Source of the DNA: Mycobacterium florentinum
GTDB taxonomy: Bacteria > Actinomycetota > Actinomycetes > Mycobacteriales > Mycobacteriaceae
Length of the DNA: 64,000 nucleotides
Direction: 5' to 3'
NCBI RefSeq assembly: GCF_010730355.1
Contig: NZ_AP022576.1
Span: forward strand, 1,116,001-1,180,000
Of this stretch, positions 11,285-29,819 are shown piece by piece. The position numbers and the translations under genes are program-made. Numbering within the stretch: the first letter of the stretch is position 1; the number at the start of each line of letters is the position of its first letter. Below the pieces are notes generated by a model. That model saw only the letters and a program-made list of their open reading frames with translations, was not told where the DNA came from and did no database searches.

Positions 11285-11329
11285 GCGCGACTCACGAACT
11301 TCGACATATGGGCTCCTGGTGCAGCGTCG

Positions 11330-13093: not shown

Positions 13094-13100
13094 TGGCACC

Positions 13101-14090
13101 TCACAACAGTTCGTTGGTCACGGCGTCGCTACCGTGCCGAAGGTACCAAGCGGCGGTGCGCTTCAGCCCCTCGTCCAGGCCGACGGCCGGCTGGTAGCCG
13201 AGTCCACGCATCTTCGAAATGTCGGGGCACCGGCGCGGGGTACCGCCCTCGGCCTCCTCGGTGGGACAAATCTCCACCTCGATCCCGACCGCCTTCGCCA
13301 CCCGGCCGGCCAGGTCCCGGATGGACACCTCTTCGTCATTGCCGATGTGGAAGATCTCGCGGTGGCCACCGTTGTCGTACATGGTGAGCACGCCGTCGAC
13401 GATGTCGTCGACGTAGCAGAACGCACGCGTCTGCGTGCCGTCGCCCTGGATTTCAAACCGCGCCGGCCCATCCGGCGTCGCGTCCCTCGCCGCCCTGGCC
13501 CTGGCGATGAATTGCGGTATCACGTGTTTGTAGCCCATGTCGGGCCCGTACACGTTGTGCGGGCGAAACACCTGAACCTTGCGGTAATGATCTTGCGCGT
13601 AGTCGAACGCGATCAACTCGCTGACGATCTTGGACCCGCCGTACGAATACCTCGGATTCAGGCTGTCCGGCAGCATGAGTGGAATCGTCTCCGGCGTGGG
13701 CACCACCGAGGGCGTCTGATACACCTCCGCGCTGGAGGCCACCACCAGATCCGGCACGCCGGCGTTGCGCCCGGCGTTGACGACCGCCAACGCACCGCGT
13801 AATCCCACGTCCAGCACCAACTCTGGTCGCTTGTAGAAGTTTTCGGTCCCATTGATCGCCGCGAGATGCATGACTACCTCGGCGCCGGCGAACGCCCCCT
13901 CGAGCGCGTCTTGGTCGCGGACGTCGCACGTGAAAAGCTCGATATCGTCGGCTACTTCGGCCAGGCGCCCGGCCTCGCCGCGCACCATGGTGTCGATCAC
14001 GGCGACGTCCCAGCCGTCGCGCACCAGCCGTCTGACCAAATAGGCGCCGATGAATCCGCCGCCACCCGTCACTACGACGCGAGTGCTCAT
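13101..14090 (-). CDS. NAD-dependent nucleotide-sugar epimerase/dehydratase
   Basis: This 329-residue extended SDR has the Rossmann loop GGGGFIG near residues 9-15, SSAEVYQ at 119-125 and the catalytic Y150-x3-K154 pair. ENFYKRPE and the RPHNVYGPDMGYKH stretch are typical of GalE/RmlB-like sugar epimerases. The ATG at 14090 overlaps the stop of the upstream dehydrogenase gene, so the two are coupled and probably act in sequence, for example oxidation of a UDP-sugar followed by epimerisation or decarboxylation. The exact substrate is unknown. Confidence 0.85.
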   Translation of the reverse strand: MSTRVVVTGGGGFIGAYLVRRLVRDGWDVAVIDTMVRGEAGRLAEVADDIELFTCDVRDQDALEGAFAGAEVVMHLAAINGTENFYKRPELVLDVGLRGALAVVNAGRNAGVPDLVVASSAEVYQTPSVVPTPETIPLMLPDSLNPRYSYGGSKIVSELIAFDYAQDHYRKVQVFRPHNVYGPDMGYKHVIPQFIARARAARDATPDGPARFEIQGDGTQTRAFCYVDDIVDGVLTMYDNGGHREIFHIGNDEEVSIRDLAGRVAKAVGIEVEICPTEEAEGGTPRRCPDISKMRGLGYQPAVGLDEGLKRTAAWYLRHGSDAVTNELL

Positions 14091-15427: not shown

Positions 15428-15560
15428 GGTCCCTCCCGACAGTCGATGTGCCAATCATTGCCGACCCGGCCGGATCTGCGGCGCGAAATGCTCTGCAAGC
15501 ACGGCTTCGACATGCAGTAAACATCTCCTTCGTCCTTGCCCTGCAACGCGCCGCACCCGG

Positions 15561-15566
15561 TAGTGT
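15561..15566 (+). promoter_or_regulatory. Possible -10 element upstream of the GT-C-like gene
   Basis: TAGTGT fits the mycobacterial TANNNT -10 consensus and lies about 80 bp upstream of the membrane protein start. A TTGCCC hexamer at 15536-15541 could be the -35 element, but the 19-bp spacing is long. A TAGTGT also occurs at 20113-20118 before the cytidylyltransferase gene. The evidence is consensus matching only. Confidence 0.3.
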
Positions 15567-15648
15567 GCCACCCAATGGGTCTGGGCTGCCCGGCGGCAGT
15601 TGAAGTCCCTGCTTTGCTTCGTTTCGCGCAGAACCGAGGAGATTGCCG

Positions 15649-17130
15649 ATGAATCGACCCGCCAAGTCGCGACGAGGTCCGGTCACCGCGGTTCGGGAGG
15701 GGTACGCAACCGTCACCGGGCAATCGCCGCGGACCATCGTGCTCGGCACGATTCTGCTGGCGACGGCGCTTTCGGTGTTGACGGGTTTCGTTCTGACGCA
15801 ATACTTCGCGATCGATGTCATTTCTTCGTTGCTTGCTTTCCCGTACGCCGATTGCTACCTCGATTGGGGCACCAACATCGGCCGGCACTGCTTCAGTGAC
15901 TACGCATTCGAAGTGATGTACGGGATGCGGGCCAATCCGTGGGAGCCATTCGACATATTCGTACAGCCGGACTATCACCAGCTGGCCGTCAACAACTACC
16001 CGGCGGCCGGCATGCTTCCGCAGGTGGCTTTTGGGCTGATCGGCAAATTGCTGGGCGCACCGGTTCTGGGCCTGTTGGGCTACCTGCTCGCCCTGACGGT
16101 CGCGGTGCTTTCGCCCGCGGTATGGGCGGCCCGGGGCGCTCGGGGCCTCGAGCGGGTCGTGGTTTTCGTGGCCTGCGGCGCCGCGGCCATCCCGGTGTGG
16201 TCGGTGATCGACCGGGCAAACTCGGTCGGCTTCTTGGCCCCGATCGGCCTGGTGTTTCTGATCGCGCTGGTGCGGCAACGGTGGGGGCTCGTCGCGGTGA
16301 CGGTGATCCTGGCCGCGCTGCTGAAACCCCAATTCGTGGTGCTGGCCATCGTGCTGCTGGCTGCCCGGCAGTGGCGGTGGGGCGGCATCGCCCTCGGCGG
16401 CGCAGTGATGTTCAACGTCGCCGCGTATTTGTTTTGGCCACAACACTTTCCACACAACATCCTGCAATCGGCAGCCGGCGTTCTCGGCTACGGCGCCGGC
16501 AGCGTCAGCGCCGTCGCGACCTCCAACGTGTCGTTCAGCCGATCGCTGCTGTTGGCGCCGGACATTCTGATGTTCCTGCAAACCGGCGGCAAAATGCCCG
16601 ACGGCTACCTGGCCGGTCCGCGCTCGACGATCGGATACGTCATCCTCGTCCTGGTCGTCGTCGCCGTGCTGGCGCTGGGACGACGCATCCCGCCCGTCCT
16701 GACCGGCATCGTGCTGCTGGTCACCGCCGCCCTGTTCCCGATGGTGAGCATCAGCTACTACTTCGTGTTCGCCCTGCCGATCGCGGCGCTGCTGGTGCGG
16801 GATCCGGATGGGCCGCCGGGCACCGGGATCCTCGACCGGCTCGCGACGGTCGCCGGACACCATCGCACCGTCGGCATCTGGCTGAGCCTGTCCACGGCAC
16901 TCACCCTTGCGACGATCGCGCTCCCGAGCCCGCCGATGCAGGTGTTGCTGTACCGCAAGGACGGCCCGCCGATCCAGGAGCTGACGGTGCTCACCACGGC
17001 AACGCTGGTACCGATGCTGTGGCTGGTGACGCTGGTGATCATCCTCGTCACGTACGCCCGCAAGCCGGACTCCGCAACGGAGGCCGACACTGCGGCGGAG
17101 TCACCGGAACCCGCCGCCACCACGACCTGA
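15649..17130 (+). CDS. Polytopic membrane protein, GT87/GT-C-like mannosyltransferase family
   Basis: This 493-residue protein has about ten predicted transmembrane helices spread over its full length. A first extracytoplasmic loop is rich in acidic and aromatic residues (YADCYLDWGTNIGRHC, then FVQPDYHQ), as in GT-C enzymes that use polyprenyl-phosphate sugars outside the membrane. In M. tuberculosis, Rv1508c and Rv1510 are comparable membrane proteins in the equivalent region. The start is ATG 15649 with GAGGA upstream. It is transcribed alone, divergent from the dehydrogenase gene and convergent with gtrA. It may use the lipid-linked sugar made by the GT2 at 20961 and flipped by GtrA (inference). 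Confidence 0.75.
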   Translation: MNRPAKSRRGPVTAVREGYATVTGQSPRTIVLGTILLATALSVLTGFVLTQYFAIDVISSLLAFPYADCYLDWGTNIGRHCFSDYAFEVMYGMRANPWEPFDIFVQPDYHQLAVNNYPAAGMLPQVAFGLIGKLLGAPVLGLLGYLLALTVAVLSPAVWAARGARGLERVVVFVACGAAAIPVWSVIDRANSVGFLAPIGLVFLIALVRQRWGLVAVTVILAALLKPQFVVLAIVLLAARQWRWGGIALGGAVMFNVAAYLFWPQHFPHNILQSAAGVLGYGAGSVSAVATSNVSFSRSLLLAPDILMFLQTGGKMPDGYLAGPRSTIGYVILVLVVVAVLALGRRIPPVLTGIVLLVTAALFPMVSISYYFVFALPIAALLVRDPDGPPGTGILDRLATVAGHHRTVGIWLSLSTALTLATIALPSPPMQVLLYRKDGPPIQELTVLTTATLVPMLWLVTLVIILVTYARKPDSATEADTAAESPEPAATTT

Positions 17131-17142: not shown

Positions 17143-17652
17143 CTACGTGCTCCGCGACGTCTCGTCCCGCGCGTCCGCGCTGTCGGTGTCGCCGCCAGTG
17201 CGCCGGAACGAGAAGTAGCGGTGGCCGAAGTAGCTCAGCAGCGTGGTTGACGCCAAGATGATCGCCTGCGCCGGAATGCGATTCAGACCGAGCTCGACCA
17301 GGACGGGCAAGGCGATGACGTTGATGCCCAGCGCGGTCAGGTAGACACTCCAGAAGCGCACCAGGTCGCGCAGCACGTGGCCGCGGACCCGGAACACGAA
17401 CCGCCGATGCATCACGAACGCGAACAGCACGCTCAGCACGTGCGAGATGCCGAGGGTGACCAGCGACCCGGCCACCTTGCCGAACCGGACGTCGACCAGA
17501 TGGCCGACGGTCTCGGAGCAGGCGATGAAGATGCCGAAGCCGACGACCGTGTTGATGCCGCCGACCAGGACGAACGCCACGCGTTGATCGCGCACCAGCC
17601 GGATCAGCGGTCCCGGGGGCGCCGATTCGGGCGGCAGGTCGAATTCGCTCAC
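17143..17652 (-). CDS. GtrA-like membrane protein, putative polyprenyl-phosphate-sugar flippase
   Basis: This 169-residue GtrA-family protein has four transmembrane helices; the FVLVGGINTVVGFGIF opening is typical of the family. GtrA proteins are thought to flip undecaprenyl- or decaprenyl-phosphate-linked sugars. The GTG at 17652 overlaps the stop of the CDP-glucose dehydratase gene (GTGA). The longer frame upstream is a shadow of that gene. The natural partner is the polyprenyl-phosphate glycosyltransferase at 20961-21893, encoded just across the divergent promoter. Confidence 0.88.
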   Translation of the reverse strand: MSEFDLPPESAPPGPLIRLVRDQRVAFVLVGGINTVVGFGIFIACSETVGHLVDVRFGKVAGSLVTLGISHVLSVLFAFVMHRRFVFRVRGHVLRDLVRFWSVYLTALGINVIALPVLVELGLNRIPAQAIILASTTLLSYFGHRYFSFRRTGGDTDSADARDETSRST

Positions 17653-18665
17653 TCGAGGCTTTCGAAGTCGGCGATCTGCTCCCGGGTCGCCACGATCACG
17701 TCGGCACCCTCGTGCACCCGACGCTCCCAGTCGACCGTCCAGGCCAGGGCCTCCTGGAAGCTCAGCCGGTTGTGCCAGCCGAGTTCGTGGTGCGCCTTGG
17801 CGGCATCGAGGGCCAGCAGGTTCGCTTCGTGGGGGTGCTCGCCGTCCTCCAGGACCCAATGCGCGCCACCGCCCCACATCTCGGCCGCCAGCGTGGCCAC
17901 CCGGCCGACCTCGACAAAGCTGTCGCGGCCCGGGCCGAAGTTCCACTGGCCCAGACCGGAGCCGGCCAGCAGCGCGTCGACGAGGGTGAGATAGCCGTTC
18001 AGGCAGTCGAGCACATGCTGCCAGGGCCGCACCGCCTGCGGGAAACGCAGCTGCGGCGCCTGGCCGGTGGCATACGCGGCGATCAAGTCCGGTAGCAGCC
18101 GATCCCGGCTGATGTCCCCGCCGCCGATGACGTTGCCCGCGCGCGCAATCGCGGTGGGGGTGCCGGGAAAGCTGCGAATCCAGGACTGGGCCAGCAGATC
18201 CGCCATGGCCTTGGACGCGCTGTAAGGGTCGTCGCCGCCCAGCGCGTCGGTTTCGACATACCCGGCCTGCTGGCCGACGTTGCGGTAGACCTTGTCGGTG
18301 GTCACGACGACGTGCGCACGCACCGATCCCGCGGCCGCGACGGCCTCTAGCACGTTGAGCGTGCCGATCGCGTTGGTCTCGTAGGTATATCTCGGGTCCC
18401 GATAGGACTCGCGGACCAGCGCCTGCGCCGCCATGTGCACCACGACGTCGGGAGCCGCCGCGCACACCGCCGCCTTCGTGGCTTCGGCGTCGCGGATGTC
18501 CACCCGGAAGTCGCAATCCAGCTGGTCGGCCAGCCCCAACCGCTTGAACAGGCTGCCCTCGACGGGGTCGAGGGCAAGACCCGACACGCGGTGCCCGCGG
18601 CCGAAAAGAAGCAGCGAGAGCCAGGCGCCCTTGAACCCGGTATGCCCGGTAACCAGATAGTGCAC
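17649..18665 (-). CDS. rfbG: CDP-glucose 4,6-dehydratase
   Basis: This 338-residue extended SDR has the signature TGHTGFKG (6-13), TTDKVY at 122-127 with the Asp-Lys catalytic pair, and Y148-x3-K152. The RAGNVIGGGD and FPQAVRPWQHVLD blocks are highly specific for CDP-glucose 4,6-dehydratase. It converts CDP-glucose to CDP-4-keto-6-deoxyglucose with a bound NAD. It starts 2 bp after the rfbH stop and overlaps gtrA by 4 bp. CDP-sugar genes are uncommon in mycobacteria, which makes this operon notable. Confidence 0.95.
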   Translation of the reverse strand: MHYLVTGHTGFKGAWLSLLLFGRGHRVSGLALDPVEGSLFKRLGLADQLDCDFRVDIRDAEATKAAVCAAAPDVVVHMAAQALVRESYRDPRYTYETNAIGTLNVLEAVAAAGSVRAHVVVTTDKVYRNVGQQAGYVETDALGGDDPYSASKAMADLLAQSWIRSFPGTPTAIARAGNVIGGGDISRDRLLPDLIAAYATGQAPQLRFPQAVRPWQHVLDCLNGYLTLVDALLAGSGLGQWNFGPGRDSFVEVGRVATLAAEMWGGGAHWVLEDGEHPHEANLLALDAAKAHHELGWHNRLSFQEALAWTVDWERRVHEGADVIVATREQIADFESLE

Positions 18666-18667
18666 GG

Positions 18668-20104
18668 CTATCGGGCGGCCTCGGCCATGTACTCGCGGAT
18701 CGAATCCGCGACGAAGTCGAGCATCGGAGTGGTCAACGCGGGATAGGTGCCGACCCAGAACGTCCGGTTCATCACGATGTCGGTGTTGGTCAGGTCCCCC
18801 ACGATCCTGAAGTCGACATCGCGGTATGCGGGCTGTTTGACCAGGTTTCCGGCGAACAGCTGGCGAAATCCGATCTTGCGCTCGTCGAGGAACTGCATGA
18901 ACTTCGTGCGGTCGACGGGGTGCTCGGGATCGAGGGTGATCGGGTAGCCGAACCAGGACGGGTCCGACTTGGGCGTGGCGACCGGCAGGATGAGCCCCTC
19001 GACACCGGTCAGCCGCTTGGTCAGATACTCGAAGTTGTCCTTGCGCGCCTGGACGAAACCGTCGAGCTTGGCCATCTGGGACAGGCCCACGGCGGCCTGC
19101 ATGTCGGTGGCCTTCAGGTTGTAACCGATGTGGCTGTAGATGTACTTGTGGTCGTAGCCCCGGGGTAGGTCACCAAGCTGCCACTCGAACCGCTTCTCGC
19201 AGGTGTTGTCGTTGCCCGGCGCGCAGTAGCAGTCCCGGCCCCAGTCGCGGAACGACTCCGCCTGCTTGCGCACCAGCGCCGACTTGACGAACACCGCGCC
19301 GCCCTCGCCGGTCGTAATGTGGTGTGCGGGATAGAAACTCACCGTCGCGGTGTCGCCGAAGCTGCCCGTGCGCTTCCCGTCGTACGTCGACCCGAGGGCG
19401 TCGCAGGAATCCTCGACCAGCCACAGGCCGTGCTTGTCGCACAACTCCTGGACCGTGTCGAGGTCGAACGGGTTGCCCAGGGTGTGGGCCATCATGATGG
19501 CCCGCGTCTTGGGGCTGACCGCCTCGCGGAGCCGCTCCGGAATGGCGTCGTAAGTGCCCAGCTCGATGTCGACGACGACCGGACGCATTCCGTTCTGGAT
19601 GATCGGGTTGACCGTCGTGGGGAATCCCGAGGCCACGGTCAGCACCTCGTCGCCGGGTTGCAGCGGGCGCTTGCCGAACCGCTTCTTGTACTGGCCCAGC
19701 TTCGGGCTGGTCAGGGCGCTGAGCGCGACCAGGTTCGCGCTCGACCCGCTGTTGACGAAGATGGCTCCCCGGGCACCGACGTAGCGGGCCAGGGCGCGCT
19801 CGAAGAGCGGGTGGAACCGGCCGGCGGTCAGCCAGCCGTCCAGCGACGCGTCGACCAGCGCGGCGAAGTCTTCCGAGTCGAGGACCTTGCCCGACACGGG
19901 GACCGGCGTGACGCCGGGGACGAACTCGGAAGTCGTGAGCTTGCGTTTCGCGTATTCGCGGACCGCGGCAAGGATATCCTCGCGATACTCCTCAAGCCCG
20001 CCCCCCGTAAGCCCATCGGTATCGAGTCTTGAAATGAGATCTCCTCGTGCGTGTGTGGTCTGTACGGCGCCCGGCGGGCCTGGGAAACCCCGCCACCGCT
20101 TCAC
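18668..20104 (-). CDS. rfbH: CDP-4-keto-6-deoxyglucose 3-dehydrase, E1 (PMP/[2Fe-2S] enzyme)
   Basis: This DegT/AHBA-fold enzyme has 478 codons from the GTG at 20104. In place of the PLP lysine it has His261 ([13 protein letters not shown]), the mark of the E1 dehydrase, so it works with PMP. The iron-sulfur ligands are present: Cys234 (EDSCDALGS) and Cys292, Cys294 and Cys302 in a C-x-C-x7-C pattern. It removes the C3 hydroxyl to give a CDP-3,6-dideoxy-4-ketohexose, with electrons from a reductase (E3). No E3 gene is visible in the window. An ATT codon at 20035 is preceded by GAGGAG at an ideal 5-nt spacing and may be the true start (455 codons). Confidence 0.95.
20041..20046 (-). promoter_or_regulatory. 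Strong ribosome-binding site pointing to an ATT start for rfbH
   Basis: Read on the minus strand, GAGGAG at 20046-20041 is followed after 5 nt by ATT (20035-20033), in frame with rfbH. The conserved protein begins shortly after. The upstream in-frame GTG at 20104 has no comparable Shine-Dalgarno, and the 23 residues it adds look non-conserved. No ATG, GTG or TTG lies at the right distance. Confidence 0.4.
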
Positions 20105-20112
20105 GACATTGC

Positions 20113-20118
20113 TAGTGT
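20113..20118 (+). promoter_or_regulatory. Possible -10 element for the cytidylyltransferase operon
   Basis: TAGTGT matches TANNNT and lies in the short divergent gap between rfbH and rfbF, about 70 bp before the rfbF ATG. No good -35 hexamer is seen. The gap must hold promoters for both halves of the CDP-sugar pathway. Confidence 0.3.
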
Positions 20119-20187
20119 GTCACCTGCGCGACGCCGCGTCAGCAAAACCGGTCGGGGAACGATTGCCTTGAGATTGGACAACTCCTC

Positions 20188-20964
20188 ATGAAAGCCGTGC
20201 TTCTCGCTGGTGGTCTGGGTACCCGAATGCGGGAGGAAACCGAGTTCCGGCCCAAGCCCATGGTCGAGGTCGGGGGACGGCCGGTGCTATGGCACATCAT
20301 GAAGATTCTTGGACATCATGGCATTTCGGAGTTCGTCGTGTGCACGGGCTACAAGAGCGAGTACATCAAGGGCTACTTCTCGAATTATGGGGTGTCCAAT
20401 CTGGACTTCACCATCACCCTCGGCGATCAGTCGAGCATCAAGTATCACGGCTCGCACGACGAGTTCAACTGGCGGGTCACGGTCGCCGACACCGGCTTAG
20501 ACACGATGACGGGCGGCCGGATCAAGCGCATCCAGAAGTACGTCGGCGACGAAGCCTTCCTCTGCACGTACGGCGACGGTATCGCCGATGTCGACATTCC
20601 CGCCCTGCTGGAGTTCCACAAGTCGCACGGCAAACTCGCCACCGTGACGGCCACCCAGCCGATGAGCCGGTTCGGCGTAATCGACCTGGAGCAGGACGGT
20701 GCGGTCGCCAAGTTCCGGGAGAAGCCCAAAACCGAAGACTGGATCAACATCGGCTACTTCGTCTTCGAGCCGGGGGTGTTCAACTATCTCGACGGCGACG
20801 AGACGGTGTTGGAGGACAAGCCGTTGCTTCGTCTGGCCGAAGACCGCCAGATCGCCGCGTTCCCGCACCGAGGGTTCTGGCAGCCGATGGATACCTTCCG
20901 GGAATCCCAGCTGCTGAACAACCTCTGGAACAGCGGGAACCCGCCTTGGAAGGTGTGGGAGTGA
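20188..20964 (+). CDS. rfbF: Glucose-1-phosphate cytidylyltransferase
   Basis: This 258-residue nucleotidyltransferase has LAGGLGTRM at 6-14, RPKPMVEVGG at 21-30, the TYGDGIADVD metal site and the C-terminal GFWQPMDTFRE block. It is full length and matches RfbF, which forms CDP-glucose from glucose-1-phosphate and CTP. It is the committing step for the CDP-sugar pathway whose next two enzymes (rfbG, rfbH) lie on the opposite strand across an 83-bp gap. Its stop overlaps the next gene's GTG. Confidence 0.96.
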   Translation: MKAVLLAGGLGTRMREETEFRPKPMVEVGGRPVLWHIMKILGHHGISEFVVCTGYKSEYIKGYFSNYGVSNLDFTITLGDQSSIKYHGSHDEFNWRVTVADTGLDTMTGGRIKRIQKYVGDEAFLCTYGDGIADVDIPALLEFHKSHGKLATVTATQPMSRFGVIDLEQDGAVAKFREKPKTEDWINIGYFVFEPGVFNYLDGDETVLEDKPLLRLAEDRQIAAFPHRGFWQPMDTFRESQLLNNLWNSGNPPWKVWE

Positions 20965-21893
20965 AGAAGAAGATCGCCGTAATCGCCCCTGCCTACAACG
21001 AAAGTGAATGCGTTGAGGAGCTGGCTCGCCAGCTGGCCGCGGTCTTCGACTCCGAGCCGGAGTACGACTTCGAGGCGATCATCGTCGAAAACGGTTCCAG
21101 CGACGACACCATGGACAAGCTGCTCGCCATCCACAAGAGGGACTCGCGATTCAAGATCGTGCAGCTGGCCCGCAACTTCCGGATGGATGGGGGTCTGACC
21201 GCCGGCCTCAATGTCGCCGACGCCGACGCCGTCGTGCTGATGACCGCGGACCTGCAGGACCCGCCCGAGTTCATCCCGGAAATGATCCGGGCCTGGGAGC
21301 AGGGCTACGAGAACGTCTACGGGGTGGTCACCGAGCGTGGCGGCACCGGCCCGATCCGCAAGATGAACTCCCAACTGTTCTACTGGCTGGCAGGCAAGCT
21401 CACCGACGATCGAATTACCAGCAATGCCAGCGACTTTCGCTTGGTCGACCGCAAGGTGTACGAGGCCGTTCGCTCGATGGAGGAGCGCAACCGGTTCGTC
21501 CGGGGACTGTTCTCCTGGGTAGGTTTCAAGTCGATCGGGCTGCCGATGAAGCGGGCGCCCCGCTTCGCGGGCGAATCCAAGGCCTACACCCTCAAGGTGA
21601 TGGACCTGGCCGGCAAGGGGATTCTCGCCCACTCCTACGTGCCGCTGCGACTGATCACGATGACCGGGTTTTTCCTGAGTGCCGCGGCGGCTATCGCCGT
21701 CTTCGTGCTCGCCGCGCGGTTCATCTTCTACGGGGTGCCGTTCCCTGGATTCGGGTCGCTCATCTGCGTCATGCTGATCGGCTTCGGCGTAATCACCCTG
21801 CTGCTAGGGGTCGTCGGCGAGTACCTTGCGCTCATCTACGAAGAAGTCAAGCAGCGCCCGAACTTCGTTGTCAGCCAGAAAATTGGCTTATGA
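20961..21893 (+). CDS. Polyprenyl-phosphate glycosyltransferase (GtrB/DPM-like GT2)
   Basis: This 310-residue GT2 enzyme has IAVIAPAYNE at 5-14, VENGSSDDT at 42-50 and TADLQDPP at 95-102. It carries two C-terminal transmembrane helices (about 228-250 and 262-285). That layout is typical of enzymes that load a sugar onto undecaprenyl/decaprenyl phosphate. The GTG at 20961 overlaps the rfbF stop, and its own stop overlaps the next gene. With GtrA (17143-17652) it forms a transferase/flippase pair, so one sugar of the final glycan is probably added outside the membrane. Confidence 0.88.
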   Translation: MKKKIAVIAPAYNESECVEELARQLAAVFDSEPEYDFEAIIVENGSSDDTMDKLLAIHKRDSRFKIVQLARNFRMDGGLTAGLNVADADAVVLMTADLQDPPEFIPEMIRAWEQGYENVYGVVTERGGTGPIRKMNSQLFYWLAGKLTDDRITSNASDFRLVDRKVYEAVRSMEERNRFVRGLFSWVGFKSIGLPMKRAPRFAGESKAYTLKVMDLAGKGILAHSYVPLRLITMTGFFLSAAAAIAVFVLAARFIFYGVPFPGFGSLICVMLIGFGVITLLLGVVGEYLALIYEEVKQRPNFVVSQKIGL

Positions 21894-23713
21894 CCTCTGC
21901 ACCGTTTAAGTACTCGGATCAACTGATCGACTGGCTGGTCGACGCCGGGTACACGCACTGCTTCTTCGTCGCGGGTGGCAACAACATGCACCTGCTGAAC
22001 TCGGTGCGGACCAGAATGGTGTGCGTGCCGTTCGTGCACGAGGTCGCCGCCGCGATCGCGGTCGAGTACTTCAACGCCGCTCGCGATGAGAACACCGGGC
22101 GTGCACTGGCTTTGGTGACGGCCGGTCCGGGAATTACCAACGCGATCACCGGAATTGCGGGCGCGTGGCAAGAAAGTCGCGAACTGCTGATTATCGGCGG
22201 GCAGGTCAAAAGCAGTGACCTGAGCCGCGGGGCGGTGCGCCAGCGCGGCATCCAGGAGATCGACGGTGTAGAGCTGGTACGCAGTGTCACCAAACGCGCG
22301 ATCCGCATCGAACATCCGGTTGCCCGCGAGGTCATCCTCGACGCCGTTCTGGACGGCCGCACACCGCGTCAGGGACCCGTCTTCCTGGAAATCTGCCTCG
22401 ACGCGCAGGGCGCACCGGGGCTGACCGGCCAGGACGGCGGCACAATTCCCGCGGCGGCCCCCCTTCCCACGGTGTCGGCAACGGATCTGGACCAAGTGGT
22501 GGACTGGGTGCGCAAGTCGGAGCGTCCCGTCGTGCTGATCGGCGGCGGTGCGAGCCGCGCGGCGGTGCGAGCCCTGGGGCAGCGGTCGGCGGCCGCGGGC
22601 ATCCCGTTGATGACCACCTGGCACGGGGCCGACCGGGTTCCGACCGAACACCCCATGTATGCCGGCCGGCCGAACACCTGGGGACAGCGGTCGGCCAACC
22701 TGCTGATTCAGCAGGCCGATCTGGTGATCGCGATCGGCAGCCGACTGGGTCTGCAGCAGACGGGTTTCGCCTGGGAAGAGTTCGTTCCCGTCGGGCGGCT
22801 GGTCCAGGTCGACATCGACGCCGCCGAGCTCGAGAAGGGGCATCCACGCGTCGACCTTGCGCTGCGCGGCGACGCCGACGCATTCCTGGCGGCCCTGTAC
22901 GACGCCGACCTCGGCGACGCCGGGCGGTGGCAGCCGTGGCGGGAGTTCGTCGCCGCCGTGCGGGCCGAGCTGCCGCTGAACGACCCGCAGAACGTCACTG
23001 CCGCGGGATACGTGGAGCCTTACGAGTTCGCGATGCGGTTGGCCGAGGTCGCCCGGCCCGACGCCATAGTGGTGCCGTGCAGCAGCGGCGGCGCCTTCAC
23101 GGTCGCCATGCAGGCCATCCAACTGCGAGCCGACCAGAAAATCGTCTCGAACAAGGCGCTCGCGAGCATGGGCTACGGGCTGTCCGGGGCGATCGGCGCG
23201 GCCCTGGCCAACCCCCACCACCAGGTATTCCTCACCGAGGGGGACGGTGGATTCGCCCAAAACCTCCAGGAGCTCGGCACGCTGCGTGCGACATCGGCCA
23301 ATGTCAAAGTCTTCGTTCTCAACAACAATGGGTATGCGTCGATTCGGATGACACAGCGCAACTACTTTGGAGGGGCGTGGATCGGTTGCGACGCGCAGAC
23401 TGGCCTGGGTCTGCCGAGCTGGGAGGAGCTGGCCCGGGCATACCGGATTCCGTTCGCCCGCGTCGATGCCGAGTCTGGTTTGGACGAACCTTCCGTCATA
23501 TCCCTGCTGGACGCGGACGGCCCCGCGCTCATCGAAGTGCCCATCGATCCGGATCAGACCTACTACCCGAAAATTACCTCGGCGGTGCAGGCCGACGGCT
23601 CCATGAAATCCAACCCGCTGCACCGGATGAGTCCCGATCTTCCTCCCGATGTCGAGAAACGGGTGTCCGTGCACCTCGGGGCCGTAATGTCCCAAGTGGC
23701 AAGCTCGAATTGA
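21890..23713 (+). CDS. ThDP-dependent acetolactate-synthase-like carboligase (YerE-like)
   Basis: This 607-residue three-domain ThDP enzyme has the cofactor-activating Glu51 (VPFVHEVAAA), TAGPGITN in the first domain and the ThDP-Mg motif GDGG (451-454) followed by a VFVLNNNGYASIR stretch. It is not a housekeeping acetolactate synthase: it sits inside a CDP-sugar operon, coupled by ATGA to the glycosyltransferase gene. In Yersinia, YerE of this family adds a two-carbon unit from pyruvate to C4 of a CDP-3,6-dideoxy-4-ketosugar. The same acceptor is made by the neighbouring rfbFGH genes. The donor may be longer here, given the aldolase and cyclase genes downstream. A homologue is reported in the M. 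marinum LOS locus (from memory). Confidence 0.88.
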   Translation: MTSAPFKYSDQLIDWLVDAGYTHCFFVAGGNNMHLLNSVRTRMVCVPFVHEVAAAIAVEYFNAARDENTGRALALVTAGPGITNAITGIAGAWQESRELLIIGGQVKSSDLSRGAVRQRGIQEIDGVELVRSVTKRAIRIEHPVAREVILDAVLDGRTPRQGPVFLEICLDAQGAPGLTGQDGGTIPAAAPLPTVSATDLDQVVDWVRKSERPVVLIGGGASRAAVRALGQRSAAAGIPLMTTWHGADRVPTEHPMYAGRPNTWGQRSANLLIQQADLVIAIGSRLGLQQTGFAWEEFVPVGRLVQVDIDAAELEKGHPRVDLALRGDADAFLAALYDADLGDAGRWQPWREFVAAVRAELPLNDPQNVTAAGYVEPYEFAMRLAEVARPDAIVVPCSSGGAFTVAMQAIQLRADQKIVSNKALASMGYGLSGAIGAALANPHHQVFLTEGDGGFAQNLQELGTLRATSANVKVFVLNNNGYASIRMTQRNYFGGAWIGCDAQTGLGLPSWEELARAYRIPFARVDAESGLDEPSVISLLDADGPALIEVPIDPDQTYYPKITSAVQADGSMKSNPLHRMSPDLPPDVEKRVSVHLGAVMSQVASSN

Positions 23714-23808
23714 GCGCGTGAGGTGTTTTGCCCAAAATCGCCCGTCGTGTCGGATGACGCGGAATCATTCTCTGCAGACTGATTGGGGCCCAAACAGGGG
23801 AAGGCGAG

Positions 23809-24609
23809 ATGAACAAGACCGAACGGCAGATGGCCGAGATCCTGCGTGTTGGCAAGGAAAAGCACGGCGTCGTAAGTGTCAAGGCCGAATTTGAGGCTGA
23901 AGGCACCCGAATCGACGAGCTGCTGCGCCTTGTCGACATCGCGCGCTCCGCGGGTTTGCCGCTCACGGTCAAGGTCGGCGGCTGCGAAGCGATGCGAGAT
24001 CTTCTCGAGGCCAAGCAGATCGGCGTGCGATACATCGTCGCCCCGATGGTCGAGACCGCCTATGCGCTGTCGAAGTACATCGCCGCCAAGAACACCGTCT
24101 ACGACGAGGACGAGGAACTCGACACGGATTTCCTGTTCAACCTGGAAACGATCACGGGTTTCAACAACCTCGATGAGATGCTCGAGCTGGCCCACAAAAA
24201 CCGCGGCGTGCACGGCATCGTCTTCGGCCGGGTCGACTTCACCGGATCGCTCGGTCAGACCCGCGAGACCATCAACAGCCCGGAGATCACCCGCTATGTG
24301 ACGACCGTCGCCGAAAAGGCGAAGCAGGCCGGTCTCGATCTCGTGCTGGGTGGCGCGATATCTAGCGACACTCTCGACACGATCCGCGAAGTCGCGAAGG
24401 TGCACCTGACCCGCTTCGAGACCCGCAAGGTCGTGTTCGACGGCTCGGCCGGCACCCTCGACTCGATTGAAGACGGTCTGCTCAACGCCGTGCACTTCGA
24501 GTTGCTCTGGCTGCTGAACAAGCGCGACTACTACGGCCACATCACCGACGAGGACGCCAAGCGCATCGAGATGCTCGATAAGCGGTGGAAGGTGCTCAAC
24601 CACCACTGA
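23809..24609 (+). CDS. HpcH/HpaI-type aldolase (citrate-lyase superfamily)
   Basis: This 266-residue TIM-barrel protein has [10 protein letters not shown] near 58-67, [13 protein letters not shown] near 75-87 and [11 protein letters not shown] near 142-152, the metal- and substrate-binding pattern of class II pyruvate aldolases of the HpcH/HpaI family. Such enzymes join pyruvate to an aldehyde, giving 2-keto-3-deoxy acids, or run in reverse. The ATG at 23809 has GGGAAGG upstream. It lies between the ThDP enzyme and the SDR/cyclase genes in one plus-strand run, so it probably builds or trims the carbon unit transferred to the sugar (inference). Confidence 0.8.
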
Positions 24610-24657
24610 GCTCAGTCGGCACCGCCCCAAATCGCCGCGCAAGAAGAAGGGACGAGC

Positions 24658-24711
24658 GTGACCGGGTCCGGCCAGCGACGCGTCCGCGATCGCGGGGTTG
24701 AACACACGTGA
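24658..24711 (+). CDS. 17-codon leader ORF coupled to the SDR start
   Basis: A GTG at 24658 follows a very strong Shine-Dalgarno (AAGAAGGG, 6 nt away) and opens a 17-residue frame, MTGSGQRRVRDRGVEHT. Its TGA at 24709 overlaps the GTG of the next gene (ACGTGA). The SDR start itself has only a weak ribosome-binding site. The arrangement looks like translational coupling through a short leader peptide. The peptide resembles nothing known to me, and the frame could still be fortuitous. Confidence 0.4.
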   Translation: MTGSGQRRVRDRGVEHT

Positions 24712-25373
24712 GTTCCACGGCTCTCGTCACCGGCGCCGCGCGCGGCATCGGCCGCAGTGTCGCCGACACATTGGAGTCGAAGGGAATTCGAGTGCTGCGG
24801 CCCGGCCGCCAGGAACTCGATCTCGCGCGGTCCGAATCCGTCTCCGCCTATCTGAGCGGGCTTGACGAGACCGTCGACATCCTGGTGCTCAACGCTGGCA
24901 TCAACAATCCTGAACCCCTGCAGGATATTTCGGCGGAGAATTGGTCAGGCACGCAGCAAGTCAATGTCAGCGCCAATCTTCAACTCCTGCAAGGATTACT
25001 GCCGCGGATGGCGGCCGCCGGCTACGGCAGAGTGGTCGCGCTCTCCAGCGTCTACGCGCACCGGGCTCGTGCCGGACGGGTTGCCTATAGTTCGTCGAAG
25101 GCGGCGATCGAGGAAGTCGTGCGTTCGGTCGCTGTGGAGTACGGACCTTTTGGTGTGATCGCCAACTGTGTCGCCCCGGGGTTCGTCCTCACCGATCTGA
25201 CATACCAGAACAACGACGCAAAGCAGCTCGACGCGCTGGCCGCGCGCATCCCGATCGGCCGGCTGGCCGAACCCGTGGAGATCGCGCGGTTTATCTCCTG
25301 GCTGGTATCTGCCGAGAATTCCTACATCACTGGACAGTCCATAGCGATCGACGGAGGTTTTCTGTGCCTGTGA
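24708..25373 (+). CDS. Short-chain dehydrogenase/reductase in the branched-sugar operon
   Basis: This 221-residue classical SDR has the cofactor loop TGAARGIG near 8-15, LNAGINN near 63-69, and the Ser-Tyr-Lys catalytic set in ALSSVYAHR...VAYSSSK. It ends with the usual TGQSIAIDGG strand. It probably reduces a keto group, either on the carbon unit before transfer or on the branched chain after the ThDP step. The start is GTG 24708, coupled to a short leader ORF, and its end overlaps the cyclase gene by 10 bp. Confidence 0.85.
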   Translation: MSSTALVTGAARGIGRSVADTLESKGIRVLRPGRQELDLARSESVSAYLSGLDETVDILVLNAGINNPEPLQDISAENWSGTQQVNVSANLQLLQGLLPRMAAAGYGRVVALSSVYAHRARAGRVAYSSSKAAIEEVVRSVAVEYGPFGVIANCVAPGFVLTDLTYQNNDAKQLDALAARIPIGRLAEPVEIARFISWLVSAENSYITGQSIAIDGGFLCL

Positions 25374-26452
25374 CCGAGGATCGAATGATCATCAAGTCCG
25401 AACAGGGTGACTACCCGGTGGATTTCGTCAGCGACGTCGCGCAGGTGGCAGCGCTGGTCGACGCCGGCCCGGAAACATTCGTCATCATCGATGAACTGCT
25501 GGTCGACATCTACGGTCCAGCGCTGGACGGGCTGTTGCAGTACCCGACCTATCGGGCGACGGCCGACGAAGAGACCAAAACCCTTGCCGGCGTTAGCAGT
25601 TTCATCGACTGGCTGCTGGAGAACAAGGCGACTCGCTCGGCACGCATCGTGGCGATCGGCGGCGGCGTCATCCAGGATGTCGCGACTTTTGCGGCACATG
25701 TCTACTACCGCGGCGTGAGCTGGATAAACGTTCCGACGACGCTGCTCAGTCAGGCGGACAGTTGCATCGGAGCGAAATCCAGCATCAACGTGTTGCCGTT
25801 GAAGAATCAGCTCGGCGTCTTCCACTCGCCCAGCCACGTGGTGATTTGCTCCGAGTTTCTGTCCAGCCTGCCCCAGGTCGAGCTGGACTCCGGCTACGGC
25901 GAGATCTACAAACTCGCGCTCACCAACGACGGAGCATTCTTCGACGACCTCGTCGACGCCTTACGCGATGGCGGCCACCGCAATCCGCGTCTGCTGGAGA
26001 TGATCCGCAAAGCACTGGAGAGCAAGCGGCTCGTCATCGAGCAGGACGAACACGAGTCGGACTTGCGACGCGTGCTGAACTACGGCCATAGCTTCGGTCA
26101 TGCGCTGGAAGCGCTGACCCACAACGAAGTTCCGCACGGGATCGCAGTGATGTGGGGCATGGACCTGATCAACTTTCTCGGGGTGAAGTGGGGCCTGACC
26201 AACTCGCAAACGGCCGCACGGGTGCGCACCGCGCTGACCGCCAACACCGACTACACGATAGCCAATATCCCGTCGGCCCAGGAGCTGGTGGATACGCTCA
26301 AGCGCGACAAGAAGGTTCGTAAGGGCGTCATGTACTTCTCGGTATTGCACGACGAGGGCGACCTGAGGATTGTGCCGAAGCCACTCGACGAGGCACTGGT
26401 AGCCGAGGTCTCGGAATACCTGGATGACGAGCCGCTCTTCGCTGCTCGTTGA
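25364..26452 (+). CDS. 3-dehydroquinate-synthase-like sugar phosphate cyclase
   Basis: This 362-residue sugar-phosphate cyclase has GGGVIQDVATF (99-109), VPTTLLSQADS (123-133) with Asp132, GAKSSIN (136-142) with Lys138, and Lys147-Asn148. The metal ligands Glu180, His242 and His258 are all present, as are Lys183 and the NYGHSFGHALE block. The catalytic set therefore looks complete. AroB uses DAHP; relatives use heptulose 7-phosphates or other phosphates. This copy is in a CDP-sugar operon, not with aroC/aroK, so housekeeping AroB is unlikely. The GTG start at 25364 has GGAGG upstream; an ATG at 25385 is an alternative. Confidence 0.85.
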   Translation: MPVTEDRMIIKSEQGDYPVDFVSDVAQVAALVDAGPETFVIIDELLVDIYGPALDGLLQYPTYRATADEETKTLAGVSSFIDWLLENKATRSARIVAIGGGVIQDVATFAAHVYYRGVSWINVPTTLLSQADSCIGAKSSINVLPLKNQLGVFHSPSHVVICSEFLSSLPQVELDSGYGEIYKLALTNDGAFFDDLVDALRDGGHRNPRLLEMIRKALESKRLVIEQDEHESDLRRVLNYGHSFGHALEALTHNEVPHGIAVMWGMDLINFLGVKWGLTNSQTAARVRTALTANTDYTIANIPSAQELVDTLKRDKKVRKGVMYFSVLHDEGDLRIVPKPLDEALVAEVSEYLDDEPLFAAR

Positions 26453-27698
26453 CGTCGGTGCGACCTACGTCAAGGTCGCGGTGCTGCGGGCGGACGAAAA
26501 CATCGTCGCGGAAAGCAAATTCGACTTTCCCCCGTTCTTATCGCTCAACGGGCCGTATCGAACGGTCGACCCCGCCGTAGTGCTGGCCGTGGTCGAAGGG
26601 GCCATCGCGTCTGTCCTCCCCATGGCCGACAACCCGGAGCGGATCCTGCTCAGCGGCCAAATGCACGGCTGGACGCTGACCGACGAGCACAACGTTCCGC
26701 ATCTCCCGCTGTCCACCTTCCAGGACAACCGCGCCCTATTGCCGCGTAACGGCAGTTCGCACCTTGATGAACTGCGCAACGCACAACCGCCGGAAATCTG
26801 GCATGCAGCCGGAAACGAGCTGCGCTCGGGACTACCCGTTGCGGGCATCTATGCGACCGATCTTGCGGCCTTCGACGGTCCGCTTCGCGTGCACAGCCTG
26901 CTGTCTTGGGTGGCCGCGGCACTGACCGGCACCCCGGCATTCGTCCAGCACCTCACCGACGCGGCCGCCTCCGGCATGTTCGACCTGAAAGCCGGATCCT
27001 GGTCCGAGCAGATCACCGCCCTGGTCGGCGGCCGCACCCGACTGCGACTCCCGCAGGTGTCGTCGACGCTGGAGGTGGTCGGCATCCATCGCGATTCGGG
27101 CGCCACCGTATTGACTCCGGTAGGTGATCAACAAGCGGCGCTACTCGGGGCCGGACTACGCCGGGGCGTCACCGCCTTCAACATCTCCACCGGGGGTCAG
27201 GTTGCCCGCCTCGCGAACGAGCCGGCCGGGCAGCGGTGCCAGACGCGGCCCTATTTCGACGGACTGCTGCTGCACACCAAAACGCACCTCCCCGCAGGAC
27301 GGGCGCTCACCCGCGGTGTCGAGTTGCTGTCGCGCGGCCGAGCCGACGACGGCGCATGGGAGTGGGCGAATCGGGCTGCTGCCGCGCCGGCGGACCATCC
27401 GCTCCCCCGGTCGCGGCCGACGTTTCATCACGCCGACGGCGGTGGGTGGTCGGGCATCACGGATGCTCACACCGCCGAAGACCTCATGCGGGCACTCGTC
27501 ATTGCGATCGCCGCGCCCTATGTCGACTCGGCTCCCGATGTCGGGTTCCACCCGATGGATGAGCTGCTGTTCTGCGGTGGCGTGGCCCAGCGTTTCGCCC
27601 CGCTGCGAACCGAGATCCGGTCCGCACTGGATCGTCCCGCCAACGTCGCACCCGATGGCGACATGGCGCTGCGCGGACTCGCCGGCCTGGCGCGCTAG
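26424..27698 (+). CDS. FGGY-family carbohydrate kinase (sedoheptulokinase-like)
   Basis: This 424-residue ASKHA-fold kinase has the first phosphate motif DVGATYVK (10-17), SGQMHGW (77-83), STFQDNR (97-103), TDAAASGMFD (178-187), the catalytic Asp in GDQQAALLG (234-242) and a C-terminal FCGGVAQR adenosine-site motif. FGGY kinases phosphorylate the terminal hydroxyl of sugars such as sedoheptulose or xylulose. It overlaps the cyclase gene by 29 bp. It may phosphorylate the open-chain substrate that the cyclase-like enzyme needs (inference). It is the last gene before two hairpins that look like terminators. Confidence 0.82.
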   Translation: MTSRSSLLVDVGATYVKVAVLRADENIVAESKFDFPPFLSLNGPYRTVDPAVVLAVVEGAIASVLPMADNPERILLSGQMHGWTLTDEHNVPHLPLSTFQDNRALLPRNGSSHLDELRNAQPPEIWHAAGNELRSGLPVAGIYATDLAAFDGPLRVHSLLSWVAAALTGTPAFVQHLTDAAASGMFDLKAGSWSEQITALVGGRTRLRLPQVSSTLEVVGIHRDSGATVLTPVGDQQAALLGAGLRRGVTAFNISTGGQVARLANEPAGQRCQTRPYFDGLLLHTKTHLPAGRALTRGVELLSRGRADDGAWEWANRAAAAPADHPLPRSRPTFHHADGGGWSGITDAHTAEDLMRALVIAIAAPYVDSAPDVGFHPMDELLFCGGVAQRFAPLRTEIRSALDRPANVAPDGDMALRGLAGLAR

Positions 27699-27883: not shown

Positions 27884-27938
27884 CTAAGGGCAGGAGGGAC
27901 AACGAGTCCGCTTGCTTGACAGGGGGTTTCGAAACGCC

Positions 27939-28862
27939 ATGCGCCAGGGATGTCCGATCTGCGGAGGGCCGGGAGCCATCGAGGCGTATGGCCGCATCGC
28001 GCCATTTATTCTCGAGCTCCGCAGTGGTCCGCGGGACGGACCGCGCGATACCGCCCTTCGCCGCTGCGACACCTGCGATTTGACCTACTTCGCCCATCGT
28101 TTCGATGCTGACACTCTTGACGCCATGTATTCGGGGTACCGAGACGACCGCTACCTTTCGATCCGGCGAAGCTGGGAGCCCTGGTACTCGCGGAAGACGA
28201 ATTCGGCAACCAAGCCCGGCTCCGAAGCCGCCGCCGAGCGCACCGAGTTCATGACCGAAGTCGTTGGCGCTCATACCGACATCGACAACCTACGCAATAT
28301 CGTCGACTACGGAGGCGACGAGGGTCAGTTTTTCCCCGCCGGCTACCGGGGCCGCAAGTATGTCATCGAAGTCTCGGGAAAGAACTTGGTCGAGGGCGTG
28401 CAGGCCGCCTCGACGCTCGATGAGCTGCCCGACCGGCCTCACCTGGTGATCGCGGCTCACCTTCTCGAACACCTCGTTGACCCTCTGGCTGTGGTCTTCG
28501 AGATTCGGGCCGCGGTCGCCGACGACGGGTTGTTCTACGTCGAGGTGCCGTTGGACCGGCCGAAGGTGCACCCATGGCATGCCGGACCGCATTACCGCCT
28601 TTTCCTGAAGTGGGTTTCGGCATTCCGTTTCAGCTGGGTTGTATTGGATTTCATCACCGGCGTAGCGCGGAACTTCGGCCGTGGTGTGCCACGGTTAGGC
28701 ACCGTCAAGCAGAGCGAACATATCAACTACTTCTCGACGCGATCTCTGCGAACGTTGCTGACCCGTGGCGGTTTTCGGGTAGTAAGCACGGCCTCCGACG
28801 CGACGGCGAGTGTCGGGGGCTTGCGGATGGGCAGGCTGGGAGCACTGGCGGTTCCGGCGTGA
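27939..28862 (+). CDS. Class I SAM methyltransferase with N-terminal zinc motif (sugar C-methyltransferase-like)
   Basis: The protein has 307 residues. The N-terminus carries paired cysteines, CPIC (5-8) and CDTC (43-46), the zinc site seen in NovU/TylC3-type sugar C-methyltransferases. A Rossmann region follows with VDYGGDEGQF as a degenerate SAM loop, then LEHLVDP and a C-terminal half ending at SEHINYFSTRSL. Known relatives methylate 4-keto sugars or related intermediates. I chose the ATG at 27939; a TTG at 27912 is nine codons upstream. It stands alone behind two terminator-like hairpins, convergent with the NAD-epimerase gene. Confidence 0.72.
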   Translation: MRQGCPICGGPGAIEAYGRIAPFILELRSGPRDGPRDTALRRCDTCDLTYFAHRFDADTLDAMYSGYRDDRYLSIRRSWEPWYSRKTNSATKPGSEAAAERTEFMTEVVGAHTDIDNLRNIVDYGGDEGQFFPAGYRGRKYVIEVSGKNLVEGVQAASTLDELPDRPHLVIAAHLLEHLVDPLAVVFEIRAAVADDGLFYVEVPLDRPKVHPWHAGPHYRLFLKWVSAFRFSWVVLDFITGVARNFGRGVPRLGTVKQSEHINYFSTRSLRTLLTRGGFRVVSTASDATASVGGLRMGRLGALAVPA

Positions 28863-28886: not shown

Positions 28887-29819
28887 TCAAATCCCGCCGA
28901 GCACCCCTCGAGCGGTGATCTCGATTTGACGGTCAAGGGGAACGCTGCCGAATTGCCATTTCTGGCAACGACTTTCCCAGTCCTTACCGTCGCTATGGTA
29001 CCGATCCGGATTGCCGGCATCGACCGTGTCACGGCTTATTGACGCATCCGGGCGCACTGCTTGAGCGACCCGACTTGCCAGCTCGCCCATCTCGACCAGC
29101 TCGCCCCCGCTTTCGATCGTGCACGACCCGACACCACCCTCAGCGATACCCAGCGCGAGTAGCTCCTCGGCGAGTACATAGCGGCGAAACACCGGACGGC
29201 GTGCGGTAATTCGTATCGCCCCGGAGTCGGCGGCCTGGATCATCGATGCCAACGCGTAGTTCCGCGGATTTTGCACGTGGGCACCCGAGATGCTCCACGC
29301 CCGCGCGACAACGGACACCACCCCGCGCTCGCCCGCCGCCCGCGCCAGACGTTGCTCGGCCTCGCGCTTGAGATAGCCGTAGGGGTTGTCCTCGAGCGAT
29401 CCGTCGAGAGCGTCGTGGGGGTAGACCGCCGCCCCGCTGGAGAGAGTGAGTGCCAGCCGTACCCCCGCCAACTCCGTCGCGTACACCAGTTGGTCGGTCA
29501 GGCCGCGGTTGACGGCGACGTACTCGCCGAGCGGCATGCCCGCAACGCGGTCGCGGGTCAGAAAAGCGCAGTCCAGCACCACAGTTGGGGCGAACGCGGC
29601 AACCTCCGCGGGGTCCCACTCGCGGCACTCGATTTCACGATCAGCGACGCGGATGATTCGGGCCCGACTGGCGAGAGCCAACGTCGGCAGACCCAGCGGT
29701 GCCAGCAGGTCCAGAGCGGTCCGCCCCAGCCAACCCGACGCGCCGGTGATAAGGATCCGGTCGTTGCCGAGTGCCCCCGCCACGAATGCCCGCGCACTCG
29801 TGCTCACCAGGCCCGTCAT
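28887..29819 (-). CDS. NAD-dependent epimerase/reductase (extended SDR)
   Basis: This 310-residue SDR has the cofactor loop TGASGWLG (about 25-32), LSSGAAVYP and the catalytic Tyr-Lys in NPYGYLKRE. The first conserved region is preceded by a 20-residue extension. It resembles nucleotide-sugar 4-reductases and epimerases but lacks features that fix the substrate. It starts 9 bp after the stop of the acyltransferase gene, in the same operon. It is a candidate for the final ketone reduction on the branched sugar (inference). Confidence 0.78.
   Translation of the reverse strand: MTGLVSTSARAFVAGALGNDRILITGASGWLGRTALDLLAPLGLPTLALASRARIIRVADREIECREWDPAEVAAFAPTVVLDCAFLTRDRVAGMPLGEYVAVNRGLTDQLVYATELAGVRLALTLSSGAAVYPHDALDGSLEDNPYGYLKREAEQRLARAAGERGVVSVVARAWSISGAHVQNPRNYALASMIQAADSGAIRITARRPVFRRYVLAEELLALGIAEGGVGSCTIESGGELVEMGELASRVAQAVRPDASISRDTVDAGNPDRYHSDGKDWESRCQKWQFGSVPLDRQIEITARGVLGGI

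Follow-up and report, generated by a model that had tools for sequence, protein, structure and literature searches.

In Mycobacterium marinum, the branched sugar caryophyllose of the lipooligosaccharides (LOS) has been tied to MMAR_2332, a thiamine diphosphate (ThDP) enzyme with an ErwE-like donor preference for hydroxylated 2-keto acids, whereas YerE itself favours pyruvate (PMC12247030; this and the other papers cited were available in part, and are cited for those parts). In that source the enzyme assay of ketone-accepting carboligation is still pending for MMAR_2332, and the available parts do not state where the six-carbon donor comes from. The caryophyllose side chain is a D-altro-1,3,4,5-tetrahydroxyhexyl group, and mutants in MMAR_2331, MMAR_2332 and MMAR_2333 accumulate LOS-II*, without caryophyllose (PMC5706390, which leaves the role of MMAR_2331 open between synthesis and transfer); MMAR2333 is listed as a glycosyltransferase (PMC4403928). 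Here we analyse a related gene cluster of Mycobacterium florentinum, within a stretch of 64,000 nucleotides (NZ_AP022576.1, positions 1,116,001 to 1,180,000; hereafter the window) of a genome that forms one contig of 6.22 Mb (G000). We hold with moderate confidence that this locus makes CDP-caryophyllose or a near isomer of it for a mycobacterial surface glycolipid, by the stepwise route proposed below. To a broader proposal we give an even chance: that a dehydroquinate synthase (DHQS) fold has here turned into a non-cyclizing terminal deoxygenase, which with a kinase and a short-chain dehydrogenase/reductase (SDR) turns the terminal CH2OH of a 3-deoxyulosonic acid into CH3, and that these three enzymes form one among a number of donor cassettes (with aldolase, NeuB or acid-sugar dehydratase) that replace one another and determine which side chain a YerE-like enzyme adds to the shared CDP-3,6-dideoxy-4-ketohexose, in mycobacteria and, in the form of ThDP, SDR, DHQS-like and FGGY genes, in metagenome-assembled genomes (MAGs) of three other phyla.

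The cluster has two divergent arms. The minus strand carries rfbG (CDP-glucose 4,6-dehydratase; 17649..18665; TIGR02622, 372 bits against a cut-off of 278) and rfbH (the C3-dehydratase step to CDP-3,6-dideoxy-4-ketohexose; 18668..20104; NF011936, 691 bits, cut-off 423). The plus strand carries rfbF (glucose-1-phosphate cytidylyltransferase; 20188..20964; TIGR02623, 350 bits, cut-off 300), a GT2 glycosyltransferase (20961..21893; PF00535), a YerE-like ThDP carboligase (21890..23713), an HpcH/HpaI-superfamily aldolase (23809..24609), an SDR (24708..25373; PF13561, PF00106), a DHQS-like putative phospholyase (25364..26452) and an FGGY-family kinase (26424..27698; PF00370, 55 bits). Neighbouring frames overlap by 4 bases (GT2 and ThDP), 10 bases (SDR and DHQS-like) and 29 bases (DHQS-like and FGGY), and GT2, with its likely GTG start at 20961, overlaps rfbF by 4 bases; the query for the GT2 homology searches began at 20931, ten codons upstream of that start. 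All the genes named in an earlier note on this DNA are open frames at these coordinates, and RfbF, RfbG and RfbH each score above their NCBIfam equivalog cut-offs. That note's statement that its scheme accounted for every gene does not quite hold, as the GT2 gene lies inside the interval it described and was overlooked. The second reduction it postulated does have a candidate gene, which it also overlooked, outside that interval: an NAD-dependent epimerase/dehydratase-type reductase on the minus strand (28887..29819; PF01370, 43 bits). Recurrence of the set among other mycobacteria, and of part of it in other phyla, shows that the cluster is not a chance assembly.

The closest known counterpart was located through a primer printed for the knockout of M. 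marinum mmpL12, which is MMAR_2342 (PMC12507525). Among 297 genomes of the genus, drawn from a larger group, only G237 has an exact match to the primer. That single match and the locus itself, which lies about 24 kb away from it, are our grounds for treating G237 as M. marinum. Its proteins are 94% (RfbF), 92% (RfbH), 80% (RfbG), 87% (GT2, the copy beside the ThDP gene), 83–84% (ThDP), 95% (aldolase), 86% (SDR), 83% (DHQS-like) and 74% (FGGY) identical to those of the window. The MMAR numbers other than 2332 and 2333 follow from gene order, by which the aldolase would be MMAR_2331, the SDR MMAR_2330, the DHQS-like protein MMAR_2329 and the kinase MMAR_2328. With this numbering, the mutant phenotypes mean that the aldolase, the carboligase and the glycosyltransferase already have genetic support; in the available parts of the two papers found by search, no mutant in the triad of SDR, DHQS-like and FGGY genes is reported. 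The gene-for-gene match supports the earlier assignment to a caryophyllose-type sugar.

The set also travels together across the genus. A ThDP ortholog (E up to 1e-120) is present in 11 of the 297 genomes and a DHQS-like protein (E up to 1e-60) in nine. Eight of these nine belong to the 11 and have the protein at 83% identity or above; the ninth (G210), which lacks the ThDP ortholog, has it at 35%. The outlying reductase (E up to 1e-80) occurs in 15 genomes, namely all 11 with the ThDP ortholog and four others (G023, G113, G216 and G278), each of which has a divergent ThDP enzyme (31–36% identity) nearby. RfbF, RfbH and GT2 are found in all 15 of these loci and RfbG in 14, the stretch of G023 ending first; some of these matches are partial in G045, G211 and G278. 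Fisher values for co-occurrence, which ignore kinship, are 4e-17 and 1e-13, the latter for the DHQS-like gene within the ThDP genomes. In one genome (G031; L037, about 10699-16535) one-frame matches cover 495 of the 607 residues of the ThDP enzyme (to residue 496) and 275 of the 424 of the kinase, and these copies may be broken or mis-sequenced. The earlier note had asked for co-occurrence in producers and absence from close non-producers: the set is present in M. marinum (G237), and neither the DHQS-like gene nor the ThDP ortholog occurs in four genomes with the MKAN27435 primer site (three exact, one with two mismatches), which would be M. kansasii or its kin, a species whose LOS is described, in the parts available, with fucose and N-acylkansosamine. 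One genome with an M. kansasii LOS primer site (G222; L105, 17768-19554) encodes RfbF-like (55%) and RfbG-like (48%) proteins, with no close RfbH and no ThDP match within the 80 kb stretch.

On family assignment, RfbF, RfbG and RfbH together are predicted to make CDP-3,6-dideoxy-4-ketohexose, and the gene for the ThDP enzyme adjoins theirs. Against solved structures this enzyme matches 8rph best (E 3e-83) and then 5ahk (E 4e-56), which we take to be JanthE and the YerE of P. protegens. It has the GDG motif, presumably the ThDP motif, and the Glu of the HE pair, which we assume to be catalytic, aligns with both 8rph and 5ahk. The JanthE and P. protegens YerE structures are both named in a review (PMC12247030). 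By these comparisons the protein is a YerE-like carboligase, putatively ketone-accepting. From its position the GT2 protein would be the ortholog of MMAR_2333, and it probably transfers the branched sugar to a carrier or to the LOS. In yersiniose synthesis the C1' ketone is reduced by YerF, and the strict co-occurrence of the outlying reductase with ThDP-type loci suggests the same role for it here, as the candidate C1'-ketone reductase.

The best evidence on the donor comes from what replaces the aldolase. The 15 genomes fall into cassette types: aldolase with SDR, DHQS-like and FGGY genes in eight; aldolase with a HAD-family gene and no triad in G249; NeuB in G045 and G105; NeuB fused to SAF- and cupin-type domains, with HAD, in G113 and G216; and an enolase-superfamily protein with mannitol-dehydrogenase-like and inositol-monophosphatase-like proteins in G023 and G278 (for the last two pairs, most typing was done on one genome of each). 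The aldolase thus occurs in nine of the 11 ThDP-ortholog genomes, and NeuB lies beside the ThDP gene in the other two. 2-Keto-3-deoxy acids can be made by pyruvate aldolases, by phosphoenolpyruvate-dependent NeuB synthases or by acid-sugar dehydratases, which are unrelated to one another, so that every locus-bearing genome has a possible maker of such an acid. That unrelated acid-making enzymes swap beside one kind of carboligase argues that the donor is a 2-keto-3-deoxy acid, as the earlier note had proposed. The dehydratase leg of this pattern is the least certain: in the one of the two enolase-superfamily proteins that was tested, talarate/galactarate dehydratase is the best NCBIfam model (56 bits, cut-off 500), rhamnonate and arabinonate dehydratases are also listed, and every score is far under its cut-off. 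The cassettes are not always compact: in G289 about 12 kb separate the aldolase and DHQS-like genes, and in G211 about 17 kb separate the triad from the ThDP and aldolase genes; G289, which has an aldolase, also carries, elsewhere in the genome, a third NeuB-family match above the cut-off. In a ThDP tree of 18 rows, with 10 of the 11 orthologs and the partial G031 copy left out, three triad-less orthologs nest inside triad-bearing ones with weak support.

Several observations stand beside this pattern. The NeuB-matching proteins of L081 (4322-5983) and L082 (13909-15570) have 553 residues each and adjoin a ThDP enzyme and a HAD protein, and the L081 protein is fused to SAF- and cupin-type domains. 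Near cassette genes, proteins of 243 residues (L039, 7527-8258) and 235 residues (L004, 13745-14452) have no Pfam or NCBIfam match. We had considered G249 as M. gastri, whose gastriose, with a side chain that ends in CH2OH, would have served as a natural control, and discarded this identification, as one conserved gene is 95% identical to G017 and 86% to an M. kansasii-primer genome.

Beyond the mycobacteria, DHQS-like family members at 42–47% identity were found in five MAG loci, from Nitrospirota, Verrucomicrobiota (two), Chloroflexota and Phycisphaerae; their MAG origin means that the taxon labels may err. Both SDR and ThDP genes are present in four of the five, and the fifth (L011, a 4.9 kb contig) has a 49-residue piece of the SDR and no ThDP gene. 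An FGGY gene stands behind the DHQS-like gene in all five, partial in L011 (193 of 424 residues) and L010 (279). NeuB and HAD genes accompany three loci (L008, L010 and L012), and none of the five has an HpcH/HpaI aldolase. The conserved core is thus ThDP, SDR, DHQS-like and FGGY, in three phyla besides Actinomycetota, with the keto-acid maker exchangeable there too. The aldolase as an invariant part was therefore rejected, being absent from all five distant loci (short stretches) and from two of the 11 ThDP genomes, and NeuB replaces it in three of the distant loci and in both aldolase-less genomes. The DHQS-like family is rare: in the phylum of L012, one genome of 288 has a copy, and this is L012 itself. 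The ten loci returned by a search that requires exact peptide words did not include Trinickia (Burkholderia) caryophylli.

The DHQS-like protein passes the Pfam models PF01761 and PF24621 and falls under the NCBIfam AroB cut-off (259 against 305 bits). Its best NCBIfam model is TIGR04425, again under the cut-off (315 against 400 bits), and the homologs of the five distant loci also stay under 400 (330–357 bits). A second DHQ-synthase gene elsewhere in the genome is taken as its own AroB, and all 16 checked positions are identical between the two, so that the earlier note's cyclase-like enzyme with complete catalytic residues is borne out; the checked residues are retained in all 11 aligned family members. 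For these positions we assume the A. nidulans residue numbering and the catalytic and carboxylate-binding roles that go with it. K250, R264, N268 and H275 are kept in 11 of 11 members, while the one annotated Agrobacterium sedoheptulose-7-phosphate cyclase that was aligned has M, S, D and P there; on this comparison a reading as a sedoheptulose-7-phosphate cyclase (EEVS, DDGS) was rejected. Because the carboxylate-site residues of DHQS are kept, the substrate of this enzyme probably carries a carboxylate, in keeping with the earlier proposal. In a tree whose long branches are flagged by the tool, the family and the G210 paralog split from four AroB rows at 100/99, and the family splits from the paralog at 85/94, on a branch not starred. 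Specific to the family are an Ala in place of the Gly before the Lys of the GGK motif of the four AroB rows and an Ile, Leu or Lys after HG, where three of the four have Glu. Structure models (pLDDT, a model confidence score, of 72 and 73, which is middling) were used for fold only.

Among named genomes the closest DHQS-like gene is that of M. ahvazicum (92%). A plasmid search with the protein gave 107 records, all under 60% identity; of the 40 listed, two were examined closely and neither was family-like in context. Another pairing of ThDP and DHQS-like genes occurs on a Streptomyces sp. NBC_01456 plasmid (L112, 5349-12824), where a DHQS-family gene has a ThDP enzyme gene on one side and that of a BadF-type ATPase on the other. 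Genes for inositol monophosphatase, nucleotide-sugar synthase and adenylation lie close by, and the whole may be a natural product cluster. A second kind of mycobacterial SDR and DHQS-like pair, 34–37% identical to the window proteins, occurs in G210 (L021, about 786-2439), where the DHQS-like protein has His where Lys197 stands.

These elements can be joined into one route. The aldolase would add pyruvate to an unphosphorylated four-carbon aldose to give a 3-deoxyheptulosonate of D-ribo and not D-arabino configuration, and the FGGY kinase would phosphorylate C7, the weakest step. The DHQS-like enzyme would bind the carboxylated pyranose, oxidise C5, eliminate the C7 phosphate and re-reduce C5 as DHQS does; the ring-opened enolate would then be protonated, not closed, to a 7-deoxy-6-keto acid, and the SDR would reduce C6, thereby setting C5'. 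The kinase would thus act before the cyclase homolog and the SDR after it. Elimination without closure is proposed because aldol closure would use up the 2-keto group required by the ThDP enzyme, and because caryophyllose needs a 6'-methyl end. The ThDP enzyme would decarboxylate the acid and attach the resulting six-carbon acyl group at C4 of the CDP-sugar, a donor type supported by print and by comparison; the outlying reductase would reduce the C1' ketone, and GT2 would hand the sugar on, consistent with its position and with the printed listing of MMAR_2333. In a Fischer tabulation that uses the configurations denoted by altro and arabino, C3', C4' and C5' of the side chain come out as right, right, right (D-ribo), and 3-deoxy-D-arabino-heptulosonate 7-phosphate (DAHP) as left, right, right. 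The difference at C4 makes DAHP an unlikely precursor, and a separate aldolase setting the other configuration makes sense. DAHP, which the earlier note had named as the substrate to assay, thus has the wrong C4 configuration for C3' of caryophyllose and is probably the wrong isomer.

The alternative that survives best, which we nevertheless consider unlikely, is that the DHQS-like enzyme does close the ring, to a C7 carbocycle that is an epimer of DHQ and that the SDR reduces to a cyclitol for another product, the ThDP donor coming straight from the aldolase. It would explain why every checked DHQS residue is kept, why the nearest NCBIfam family is named 'cyclizing' and why the triad stands apart from the ThDP and aldolase genes in G211, but not why the DHQS-like ortholog occurs only with a ThDP ortholog (eight of eight genomes) and distant members sit with a ThDP gene in four of five loci; M. 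marinum LOS, as described in the parts available, contains no cyclitol, and closure would destroy the 2-keto acid and leave the 6'-methyl end still in need of a maker. Less probable again is the same pathway in another order, with the triad acting on a different carboxylated intermediate, or with a stereoisomer or methylated relative of caryophyllose as the product: it is difficult to find a step for the kinase, extra methyltransferases occur in the window, and at 74–95% identity the proteins differ from their M. marinum counterparts, whereas the complete set is common to a known caryophyllose producer. That the ThDP enzyme uses pyruvate to make a yersiniose-type C8 sugar, the remaining genes serving another sugar, is highly improbable: the preference of YerE (PMC12247030) and the shared acceptor genes would allow it, yet the M. 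marinum ortholog (83–84%) is tied to caryophyllose and hydroxylated donors (PMC12247030) and all 15 genomes with such a locus have a possible 2-keto-3-deoxy acid maker.

Several points weigh against the proposed route to CDP-caryophyllose and its cassette pattern. The active site of the DHQS-like enzyme is complete, so that it could cyclize, and no sequence feature explains why it would not. Erythrose 4-phosphate as the aldolase acceptor would make the kinase needless; as FGGY would otherwise be idle, a free acceptor is probable, unless the kinase works at another step. One Mycobacteriaceae MAG (L007) has the aldolase, SDR and DHQS-like genes with no FGGY within 12.6 kb, and three distant clusters have both HAD and FGGY, an odd and unexplained combination. 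The aldolase is a divergent HpcH/HpaI member on present sequence comparison: the earlier assignment stands as to family (PF03328, 39 bits, cut-off 25) and fold (Foldseek with a model of pLDDT 73; closest malyl-CoA lyase, YfaU and HpaI), and the typing remains weak. In a weak YfaU alignment the metal Glu and Asp are aligned, and the N-terminal Asp/His pair known from HpaI, like its Arg, seems to be replaced; we take these (Glu/Asp, Asp-His and Arg70) to be its functional residues. For the enolase-superfamily protein the second-best NCBIfam model is o-succinylbenzoate synthase (41 bits), an enzyme that yields no keto acid. Rfb genes were seen in only two of the five distant loci, which are short (RfbH at 51% in L008; RfbF at 52% and RfbG at 30% in L010). 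No gene of pks5 size lies within the window, whose longest open reading frame encodes 978 aa. The branched sugar of the window organism is predicted here from its genes.

The cluster is flanked by a GtrA-type membrane protein on the minus strand (17143..17646; PF04138), which several relatives have at the locus, and by a possibly tailoring methyltransferase on the plus strand (27912..28862; PF13489), found in the loci of some relatives and not all. Elsewhere in the window, as scanned, are two MmpL proteins, an ABC transporter, GT1-type transferases, methyltransferases and a methylmalonyl-CoA mutase gene, the last a flank common to the window and M. marinum. A promoter scan found none, and terminator-like sites were at about chance level.

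It has long been debated whether the final ring closure of the DHQS reaction is driven by the enzyme or by its substrate, and a natural non-cyclizing homolog, if true, would be the missing control for this. In the proposed pathway every gene has a role that can be tested: MMAR_2328, MMAR_2329 and MMAR_2330 (numbered by gene order) should be required for caryophyllose, and the deoxygenation should involve neither a radical enzyme nor a sugar dehydratase; the cassette pattern would offer a way to read branched-sugar structure from genomes. Overall, the earlier note is partly supported: its genes are confirmed, its sugar class, donor type and carboxylated substrate are supported, DAHP is unlikely, and its gene list is incomplete. 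The link between the carboligase and caryophyllose and the class of branched sugar are already known (PMC12247030). We found no account of the donor pathway or the triad in the caryophyllose and branched-sugar literature searched, available in part, and the word 'dehydroquinate' is absent from the available text of PMC5706390, PMC13354803, PMC12247030 and PMC12395582. The Krug 2024 survey, with more than 200 YerE-like clusters as cited in PMC12247030, lay outside that search, and some of the cassette pattern may have been published before.

Compared with known systems, the M. marinum LOS locus (MMAR_2328–MMAR_2336) is the nearest, as it shares RfbF, RfbG and RfbH, GT2, ThDP, aldolase, SDR, DHQS-like and FGGY genes with the window at 74–95% identity. 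The two differ in the place of the reductase gene, which in the window stands directly behind the operon and in M. marinum is separated from the DHQS-like gene by about 17 kb, and in the genes around the reductase. AroB shares its domains, its fold and all checked catalytic residues with the DHQS-like protein, which nevertheless groups apart, scores under the AroB cut-off, has Ala for Gly in the GGK motif and is tied to a sugar locus. The nearest NCBIfam family, TIGR04425, is described as an AroB-related putative sugar phosphate phospholyase (cyclizing), and the DHQS-like protein falls under its cut-off. The yersiniose (YerE) and erwiniose (ErwE) pathways have in common with the window a CDP-3,6-dideoxy-4-keto acceptor and a ThDP carboligase of the same group; the difference proposed here is a longer, hydroxylated 2-keto-3-deoxy acid as the donor and a deoxygenation triad.

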